A stretch of DNA of 64,000 nt from Planctomycetota bacterium (GTDB taxonomy: Bacteria > Planctomycetota > Phycisphaerae > UBA1845 > UTPLA1). The stretch spans positions 62,001-126,000 of the forward strand of contig JACRIM010000045.1 in NCBI GenBank assembly GCA_016235815.1. The letters run 5' to 3'. The position numbers were made by a program, and so were the translations under genes. The notes under the pieces were generated by a model. It was not told the origin of the DNA, did no database searches, and worked only from the letters and a program-made list of their open reading frames with translations. Positions within the stretch are counted from its first letter, which is position 1; each line of letters begins with the position of its first letter. Below are positions 45,964-48,220 of this stretch, one piece after another.

Positions 45964-46785
45964 ATGAACGTCTTCGATCCAATTATTGAAATCCTTCGCC
46001 GGCGCACATGGACCGATTTCGTCGAACTGGCCATCATCGCGGCCGGCGTCTATTCCGTCATGCGATTCCTGAAGGGAACGCGCGGCGCGAGACTCCTCCG
46101 CGGCTTTCTTTTGCTCCTCCTTGGCAGCACCCTGGTGCTGAACTTTATCGCCAACGCATTCGGTCTCGAACGCATCAAGACCATCTACCCGCTATTCGTC
46201 GGCGGCCTCTTTCTCAGCGCCCTCGTGGCCTTCCAGATCGAACTGCGCCGCGCCCTCATCCGCCTTGGCGCTGCCACCTGGTTCGGCGACACCACCAGCG
46301 ACGTCGATCGTGTCATCACCGAAGTCGTCGATGCCGCCGGCCAACTCTCCAAACGCCGCATGGGCGCCATCATCGCCTTCGAGCGAGCGACCGAATTTCG
46401 CGCGCTTGAAGAGACTGGCGTTCGCCTCGACGCAGAATTAACCAAGGATCTTCTTCTGACGATCTTTTGGCCCGGTACTCCCTTGCACGACATGGGCGTC
46501 ATCGTCGCCCAGGGCCGCATCACCGCCGCCGCCGTGCAGTTTCCAATGGCGGACGCCGAAGGCTTCGACGCCGCCATCGGTGCCCGCCACCGCGCGGCTT
46601 TGGGCCTTTCACAGGAGTCGGACGCCATCATTCTCGTCGTCAGCGAAGAAACCGGGATTATTACACTCGTCGAGGATGGACAAATGCAACGTAATCTGAC
46701 CGCCGACAATCTTCGCGATCTTCTCCACCTGAAACTCGGCGGCTCAGAATCCACTGAAGCGCAACCAACCAGGGCAACCGCCTGA
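45964..46785 (+). CDS. cdaA: Diadenylate cyclase CdaA
   Basis: 273 aa. Three N-terminal membrane helices, then the DAC domain: KRRMGAIIAFER, the LHDMG motif at 174-178 where family members have LHDGA, and RHRAALG (208-210). It makes cyclic-di-AMP from two ATP. The DGA to DMG change affects residues around the catalytic aspartate, which itself is kept (D176). It overlaps cdaR by one base, so they are coupled, as in Firmicutes. Confidence 0.88.
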   Translation: MNVFDPIIEILRRRTWTDFVELAIIAAGVYSVMRFLKGTRGARLLRGFLLLLLGSTLVLNFIANAFGLERIKTIYPLFVGGLFLSALVAFQIELRRALIRLGAATWFGDTTSDVDRVITEVVDAAGQLSKRRMGAIIAFERATEFRALEETGVRLDAELTKDLLLTIFWPGTPLHDMGVIVAQGRITAAAVQFPMADAEGFDAAIGARHRAALGLSQESDAIILVVSEETGIITLVEDGQMQRNLTADNLRDLLHLKLGGSESTEAQPTRATA

Positions 46786-47837
46786 TGCGATTGAGGTTTT
46801 CCGCCATGTGGGAAAAAATAAAATCCGCGTCAGCCGTCACCCTTATTACGATCCTCATCTGGATCACAGCCGATCAGAATGTCTCTGAGGAACAGTCCTA
46901 TTCAATTGCCGTCCGAGTCTCGTCCGCCGTCCCCAGTCGCTATGCCGCCCCGGCGGAACCGCCCTATCAGCTCTCGCTCTCGTTTTCCGCCGTCGGCCGC
47001 CGACGCCACCTCAAAGATCTTGCCGACACCATCGCTTCCAAGCAGATCTTTGATGCCGTCGTTGACGAATCGAAACAAGCGTCTCCCAATGAACAGAACA
47101 TCTCAACGCGCGAATTGCTCGCCCTAATCAAGGAAATCGCACAAGCTCCCGTGCGAATCAAAAACATCGACCCTCCCACCGTGGCAATACGCGTCGATGA
47201 GTACACCACCGTCTCCGACATCCGCGTTGCCTGCGCCGTCGGAGATCTAAAAATCAGCGGCGAACCCGTTCCGGCCAAGGTCGCCGTTCGCCTTCCACGA
47301 TTCGCCGCAAGTCAACTTGCCGCCGACCCTGTGGCCCGCGCCGATGCTGAACAGCGAATCCGTAACGCGGCCAAGCCAGACGGCAGCTTCTCCGTCAAGA
47401 TTCCGGTCGTCTTCGATGCCCTCACCAATCTCGATCCGGACATGAAGGTAGACATCCTCCCCGCCCCGGAAGTGACCCTCACAGGCCGCATCGAGGCCCT
47501 CACCACGACACGCCGCAAAGGCCCGATCCTGATCAACTGGTCCATCCCGCAGCAAGTGCAGGACGACTTCCGCATCGTCATTGAGAAGGGCACCAACCTC
47601 CGCCCCGACATCGACGTCACCGGGCCAAAGGACCTTATCGAGCAACTCGACCCTCGCGACATCCGCGCCTTCGTCGATGTCCTCGCCGCGGATACCGAGT
47701 CCCCCAGCGCTCAAATCCGAAGGCCGGTGCAGTTCGTCCTGCCACCGGGGTTCTCACTTGCCCCCGGAAATCCGCCATACGAAATCGCATTTACCCTCGA
47801 GCCGCGCGCCACCAAAACCGCCGCGCCGACGCAATAA
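46785..47837 (+). CDS. cdaR: CdaR/YbbR-like regulator of diadenylate cyclase
   Basis: 350 aa. N-terminal membrane helix (~13-27, AVTLITILIWITADQN) and an exported region with about three YbbR repeats (beta-rich ~80-residue units, e.g. RIEALTTTR and ADVLAAD segments). In other bacteria CdaR binds and modulates CdaA. The start codon overlaps the cdaA stop (TGATG). A ribosome-binding site AGGGCAACC-like sequence is weak, consistent with coupling. Confidence 0.88.
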   Translation: MRLRFSAMWEKIKSASAVTLITILIWITADQNVSEEQSYSIAVRVSSAVPSRYAAPAEPPYQLSLSFSAVGRRRHLKDLADTIASKQIFDAVVDESKQASPNEQNISTRELLALIKEIAQAPVRIKNIDPPTVAIRVDEYTTVSDIRVACAVGDLKISGEPVPAKVAVRLPRFAASQLAADPVARADAEQRIRNAAKPDGSFSVKIPVVFDALTNLDPDMKVDILPAPEVTLTGRIEALTTTRRKGPILINWSIPQQVQDDFRIVIEKGTNLRPDIDVTGPKDLIEQLDPRDIRAFVDVLAADTESPSAQIRRPVQFVLPPGFSLAPGNPPYEIAFTLEPRATKTAAPTQ

Positions 47838-47922: not shown

Positions 47923-47928
47923 TATAAT
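47923..47928 (+). promoter_or_regulatory. -10 box of the structured RNA
   Basis: TATAAT at 47923-47928, placing the start of transcription at about 47934-47936, exactly at the base of the predicted long stem. No convincing -35 box is visible at 16-18 bases. Confidence 0.5.
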
Positions 47929-47933
47929 GCTGC

Positions 47934-48029
47934 CTAAAGGCGCGCGGCGAACGGCGCTTTCCGGAAGTGGGAACCAGTTGACTCAGCGGGCCTAATTCCT
48001 TTCTTCGCCGCGGGCCTTTTTTATTTTTT
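47934..48029 (+). ncRNA. Candidate compact structured RNA of ~96 nt
   Basis: The 5' arm 47936-47951 and 3' arm 48004-48019 can form a 16-bp stem with one mismatch, closed over a ~52-base region that holds smaller hairpins (TTCCGGAA among them). The 3' arm runs directly into a T-rich tract, 48017-48029, like an intrinsic terminator, and a TATAAT lies just upstream. No protein frame fits. It resembles a standalone small RNA more than a leader, though it precedes a small zinc-ribbon gene by 11 bases. I could not match it to SRP RNA, 6S or tmRNA. Confidence 0.5.
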
Positions 48030-48040
48030 ACCTCTCCACC

Positions 48041-48220
48041 ATGAACGCCCTGACTCTATGCGTAGTTCTAGCCATCCTCGTTAGCTCCTTCGTCATTTGG
48101 ATGCGTAGCACTACCTATAAGACGCCACGGTTCGACCACCAACCGCGCTGTCCCCGTTGTGGTGCTCCCCTCCCGTTCGCCGCCGCTCCCCGATGTCCGG
48201 CCTGCGGCGACTCAATCTGA
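48041..48220 (+). CDS. 59-aa membrane zinc-ribbon protein
   Basis: One N-terminal membrane helix (LTLCVVLAILVSSFVIW) followed by a cytoplasmic zinc ribbon with two CPxCG-type knuckles (CPRCGAP and CPACGDS). Such small anchored zinc ribbons are of unknown function. It lies immediately downstream of the structured RNA terminator-like tract, so its expression could depend on readthrough. Codon use is like that of the neighbours. No ribosome-binding site is evident. Confidence 0.6.
   Translation: MNALTLCVVLAILVSSFVIWMRSTTYKTPRFDHQPRCPRCGAPLPFAAAPRCPACGDSI

Follow-up and report, generated by a model that had tools for sequence, protein, structure and literature searches.

A clade-restricted structured RNA between cdaR and a small zinc-ribbon gene in Planctomycetota, and its complementarity to an order-wide C-rich small RNA

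Two described systems, in which one small RNA (sRNA) acts against another, come closest to the locus presented here. In Caulobacter, CrfA uses a G/A-rich loop to sponge SisA-D, a four-copy set of UUUCCUCCCU-bearing sRNAs; these alphaR8 sRNAs are built from a weak hairpin, a C-rich single-stranded stretch and a terminator (PMC12559287). In Campylobacter, CJnc180 antagonizes CJnc190, a small RNA that targets G-rich ribosome-binding sites (PMC8687705). Small RNAs of Planctomycetota were not covered by any study in the literature that we searched.

Here, we describe a structured RNA unit from a 4.6-Mb planctomycete genome (G000), located in a 64,000-nucleotide section of contig C27, which we analyzed as a whole and refer to as the window. 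Like CrfA, the unit is small and has a G/A-rich core with complementarity to the C-rich block of a multi-copy sRNA, and this second RNA has the same layout as SisA-D and carries UUCUUUCCCCUCC. Unlike the Caulobacter pair, however, neither RNA has a sequence family match; they belong to a different phylum, are known here from sequence alone, and show a complementarity that extends into the terminator arm of the partner. The likeness to CJnc180 and CJnc190 lies in the setting of one small RNA against another, but CJnc180 is encoded antisense at the locus of its partner, whereas the two RNAs described here lie on different contigs.

The initial annotation of this stretch had placed a compact structured RNA after cdaA-cdaR and before a tiny gene for a zinc-ribbon membrane protein, a setting that open reading frames and domain matches confirm. 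The locus is composed of the following elements:

45964..46785, + strand: cdaA, diadenylate cyclase (DAC domain, E 7e-35)
46785..47837, + strand: cdaR, YbbR-like (weak Pfam match), directly upstream of the RNA in 6/6 genomes
47923..47928, + strand: -10 promoter box TATAAT, read from the sequence; TATAAT, TATACT or TATCAT at the equivalent site in 6/6 relatives
47935/47936, + strand: predicted RNA start, from the fold and the position of the 5' arm
47936..47951, + strand: 5' arm of the closing stem, AAAGGCGCGCGGCGAA, from the fold and from covariation among relatives
47952..47973, + strand: conserved core, CGGCGCUUUCCGGAaguGGGAA, with a between-genus identity of 84% versus ~30% in the flanks and complementarity to the order-wide sRNA
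47959-47973, + strand: possible hairpin UUCC[GGAAGUG]GGAA within the core
47974..48003, + strand: variable apical region, from a comparison of six loci
48004..48019, + strand: 3' arm of the closing stem, TTCGCCGCGGGCCTTT, from the fold and from covariation
48017..48029, + strand: T-tract TTTTTTATTTTTT (T6-A-T6), resembling an intrinsic terminator; read from the sequence, in 4/6 relatives
48041..48220, + strand: zrP, a 59-aa protein (open reading frame; sub-threshold zinc-ribbon matches), kept in 11/17 relatives

At its 5' end, the unit is preceded by a perfect TATAAT box, which is separated by 7 nt from the closing stem. The stem forms 15 pairs over 16 positions, contains a single G.G mismatch and runs into the T-tract. 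It is contained exactly (47936-47951/48004-48019) in the fold of the stretch, which has an energy of -40.0 kcal/mol, lower than that of almost all shuffled sequences, and a z-score of -2.1 against these, or of -2.8 when folding begins at the predicted start. TATAAT-like boxes are found 6-11 nt 5' of the stem in all six genomes that have the RNA, but we saw no convincing -35 box, and a sigma-70 scan did not include this promoter in its list. Of the features originally annotated, the promoter stands with regard to its -10 box, the closing stem stands although not as an unbroken run of 16 bp, and the U-tract can be read directly from the sequence. Such a tract is present in four of the six genomes (G000, G013, G015 and G008) and missing in G002 and G012, though both keep the covarying stem. 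The apical region measures ~22-32 nt in five genomes and is ~120 nt longer in G008.

Conservation of the stem with compensatory changes in relatives had been proposed as a check on the annotated structure, and such changes are present. In a MAFFT alignment of five sequences, in which unaligned positions were padded with N to hold a hand-made register and from which G008 was excluded, 93.7% of the cells in the closing stem are paired, and both sides have changed in 9 of 15 pairs. The covariation score is 0.479, compared with 0.199 for shuffled sequences and at most 0.175 with the partner strand slid; shifting this strand by one to three columns makes the pairing collapse. The stem sequence thus varies between genera while its pairing is retained, and this pairing is not explained by mere similarity, since the identity outside the core is only ~0.3 between genera. 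G008, which lay outside the covariance model and was missed by it, offers a separate case: its stem (UAAGCAAGUGUGGGGCU/AGCCCUGCUCUUGCUUA), located afterwards from the layout, is wholly different in sequence, pairs at 16 of 17 positions, is directly followed by U8 and forms part of the minimum-free-energy fold of its 180-nt unit. A stem as good as this one appeared in 2 of 300 shuffles, for which U8 was no requirement. We regard the structure of the unit as solid; the paired ends that were initially annotated are found both in the fold and in the covariation across the five genomes.

Directly 3' of the 5' arm lies a 23-nt core, CGGCGCUUUCCGGAnnnGGGAA. Compared across genera, it has an identity of 0.84, whereas the upstream flank has 0.30 and the downstream flank 0.28, and it is invariant save for three variable positions (n), a C to U change in G008 and an A to G change in G015. 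In every genome with the RNA, the core has a GGA in the loop of a possible hairpin, UUCC[GGAnnnG]GGAA. In predicted ensembles, it is only partly unpaired (0.31-0.47).

The locus holds a structured RNA that is genuinely supported by covariation and matches no Rfam family, in agreement with the initial view that it represents no known class. In the whole window, Rfam 15 matched only tRNA at gathering score; in the local stretch, nothing but a spurious 38-nt match at 48206 was found at E<=10, and three homologous loci (L002, L003 and L007) had no family at gathering score. Two well-known RNAs share some of its features. 6S RNA (RF00013) likewise has a long stem that brings its ends together around an internal bulge, but with ~185 nt, a central bubble plus terminal loop and a single copy, it differs in length and sequence. 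The bacterial small SRP RNA (RF00169) is similar in its ~95 nt, its paired ends and a GGAA in the loop, but it has a conserved apical GNAR loop and a symmetric internal loop, whereas the GGAA here varies (GGAU, GGAC, GGAG) and the loop is not conserved. The RNA is neither of the two, both of which are matched at separate places in the G000 genome (6S RNA on contig C37, with none at the RNA locus, and SRP RNA on C44). Given that cdaA adjoins, we also considered the c-di-AMP riboswitch (ydaO/yuaA, RF00379), for which there was no match in the window or the local stretch.

In the family to which this genome belongs, cdaR is found in 17 of 17 genomes, and zrP follows it in the same operon position in 11 (in G007, it was counted by eye). 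The RNA lies between these genes in six (G000, G002, G008, G012, G013 and G015), always with zrP as its downstream neighbor; in the other five, cdaR and zrP almost touch. The six RNA-bearing genomes fall into one clade of seven in the CdaR tree, whose basal fork is drawn open (86/91), and the seventh member, G001, has zrP but lacks the RNA. The simplest history is that the unit was gained once and lost once.

Searches beyond these loci returned no further copies. A search with the whole 108-nt DNA gave mostly core-like chance matches, the real ones being only G012, G015 and G013, while G002 and G008 were reached via cdaR synteny. The covariance model recovered only its five seed genomes among the 114 genomes of the order, and with a laxer filter, it found no convincing copy elsewhere in the family. 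Across 84,980 species, the exact core pattern occurred in 40 stretches, of which only two, both known relatives, score well on the model. Among the others, a match in Phycisphaerales UBA2402 lies within a long open frame, the match in G007 is the antisense reading of a copy of the C-rich sRNA, and the remainder are dispersed over phyla; viral contigs searched for the core gave no match. Within the scope of these searches, the RNA is restricted to one clade.

As for zrP itself, it encodes a membrane-anchored protein of 50-60 aa (homologs L078-L083, L086 and L088-L090) with an N-terminal transmembrane stretch and a CxxC...CxxC zinc ribbon, and stands as the third gene after cdaA-cdaR in the 11 genomes.

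Following the core through the family also uncovered a recurrent match to its reverse complement. These TTTCCGGAGGGGAAA matches are not paralogs of the cdaR-side RNA, as their U-tracts reveal that another sRNA is encoded there in the reverse orientation. This sRNA consists of GGCUUCUUUCCCCUCCGGAAAGCaCCG followed by a terminator with a U-tract, is preceded by TATAAT boxes in several copies and is conserved in the block UUCUUUCCCCUCC and the terminator. It has no Rfam match, is found in 109 of the 114 genomes of the order (zero for a reversed-pattern control), and its pattern was not seen in 391 genomes from the rest of the phylum. Genomes typically have at least two copies, one of them after the class II nrdJ gene, and they have them both with and without the cdaR-side RNA.

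In all six genomes, the core is, at the level of sequence, complementary to the C-rich block of this sRNA, with predicted duplexes of 20-21 bp and -31 to -41 kcal/mol and with 1-3 bulged nucleotides that all fall into the variable nnn part. Because the likelihood of a chance complementarity was judged after the partner had been noticed, the following figures are descriptive rather than formal tests: 0-5 of 1000 shuffled cores pair equally well, no background window of 1696 pairs as well in G013 and in G002, and 5 and 17 of 1696 windows are equal by energy for the weaker copies in G000 and G015, so that the pairing beats between 99 and 100% of the background windows drawn from the genomes. The core of G013 is within 2 mismatches of the exact complement of the sRNA block, and only three places in that genome come within 2 mismatches of the block, the antisense core among them (none for the reversed-pattern control). 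The substitutions in G008 and G015 occur at paired positions and preserve the pairing. Most copies across the order read GCACCG, which results in a single C.A mismatch against the core. For about half of its length, the complementary block coincides with the 5' arm of the terminator hairpin of the partner, outside the seed, and co-folding of the mature forms yields a gain of just 0 to -1 kcal/mol, which does not favor the duplex.

These observations make a base-pairing hypothesis concrete. The unit would be a gene for a non-coding small RNA, about 85-95 nt long, whose transcription starts from a -10 box of its own. A long covarying stem would lock the 5' and 3' ends together and serve as a scaffold that retains its pairing as its sequence changes, and in most relatives, stem and U-tract would release the RNA. 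The core, with its G/A-rich loop, would be the working part and bind the C-rich block, UUUCCCCUCCGGAAAGCgcCG, of the order-wide sRNA family, by a first contact between loop and seed (GGAnnnGGGAA : UUUCCCCUCC); the first pairs would need to form either within the C-rich stretch or while the partner is still being transcribed and its terminator has yet to close. Binding would then lower the activity of the C-rich sRNA, in the manner of a sponge or decoy. We infer such a function, from transcription and release as a free RNA to pairing and effect in the cell. A free RNA is favored because of the U-tract in 4/6 genomes, and a sponge because the layout, with its paired ends, presented G/A-rich core, multi-copy partner and C-rich stretch before a terminator, matches that of CrfA and SisA-D. 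Even so, we put forward a terminated free RNA that acts as antisense or sponge only tentatively, and keep it short of probable because the co-folding of the mature forms does not favor the duplex. Somewhat more tentative still is the full scenario, in which a clade-specific sponge RNA with its own promoter was inserted between cdaR and zrP, its scaffolded core being a dedicated antisense to a nearly universal C-rich sRNA family, and in which the two RNAs form a pair parallel to CrfA/SisA-D that arose independently in Planctomycetota. If they do pair, they would constitute an sRNA-sponge circuit outside Proteobacteria.

The strongest rival, doubtful in our view but well worth considering, is that the unit acts in cis as a leader or attenuator: its promoter would drive zrP, and expression would be stopped or blocked by the stem and U-tract together, or by the stem next to the start codon, except when a core-bound factor keeps the stem open. 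It owes its strength to the constant position of the unit, which in 6/6 genomes lies immediately 5' of zrP in the same orientation and nowhere else, and to the lack of room for another zrP promoter where the ATG is close to the stem. In G013, the ATG immediately follows the U-tract, which means that transcription of zrP has to pass through the stem, and where the unit is absent, zrP directly adjoins cdaR. On the other hand, we found no alternative pairing that could act as an antiterminator, a stem of 14-17 bp is hard to switch, neither the U-tract nor the distance between stem and ATG is conserved, and the apical region of G008 is far larger. The initial annotation had allowed for both a free small RNA and a regulator of the zinc-ribbon gene, and the two are not mutually exclusive, as a leader whose transcription is terminated can itself act as a free RNA.

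The core could also be a binding site for a protein, for instance a GGA-loop site for CsrA, which the RNA would titrate or by which it would be bound. The GGA in the possible hairpin loop and the occurrence of CsrA in 15/17 family genomes are compatible with this, but there is only a single site, the GGA motif does not explain the strict conservation of CGGCGCUUUCC, and G015 has the RNA without a PF02599 match, in an assembly that is 97% complete and where absence is thus not certain; we consider this reading unlikely. Much less credible is that the stretch is simply a terminator for cdaA-cdaR plus a following promoter, with no RNA function. A stem with a U-tract does sit 3' of cdaR, but the -10 box precedes it, two genomes hold the covarying stem without a U-tract, and the 23-nt loop core is conserved far beyond the needs of a terminator, so that this explanation is already largely contradicted. 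A short leader peptide, finally, is suggested by an open frame (GAFRKWE-like) that spans the core in several genomes, but it is highly improbable: the predicted transcript has no in-frame start codon in G000 or G015, wobble positions are invariant, and frames and ends differ in other genomes.

Some further observations concern the C-rich sRNA. In G000, two copies lie outside the window (L057 at G000:C24:71297 and L058 at G000:C43:22123), each with the block TTTCCCCTCCGGAAAGCaCCG and an intrinsic terminator, and one copy is close to a radical-SAM CofH/MqnE-like gene. The terminator arm shows a compensatory change within one sister family (GGAGAGC...GGUGCCCUC). Several copies (L058, L060, L064, L068 and others) could form an alternative hairpin, CUUUCC[CCUCC]GGAAAG, which excludes the terminator stem and would display an anti-Shine-Dalgarno-like CCUCC loop. 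A divergent relative, TATTCCCCCCTCCGGAAAGCGCCG plus terminator, is found in G005 (L066), G010 (L069) and G007 (L070), in the latter two next to a gene resembling mannose-6-phosphate isomerase. Lastly, G008 has a locus elsewhere in its genome (L062, G008:C1:179986) with CGGAGCTTTCCGGAAGGGGAA, complementary flanks CGGAGCT/AGCTCCG and a strong inner hairpin; it looks like another closed RNA of this type.
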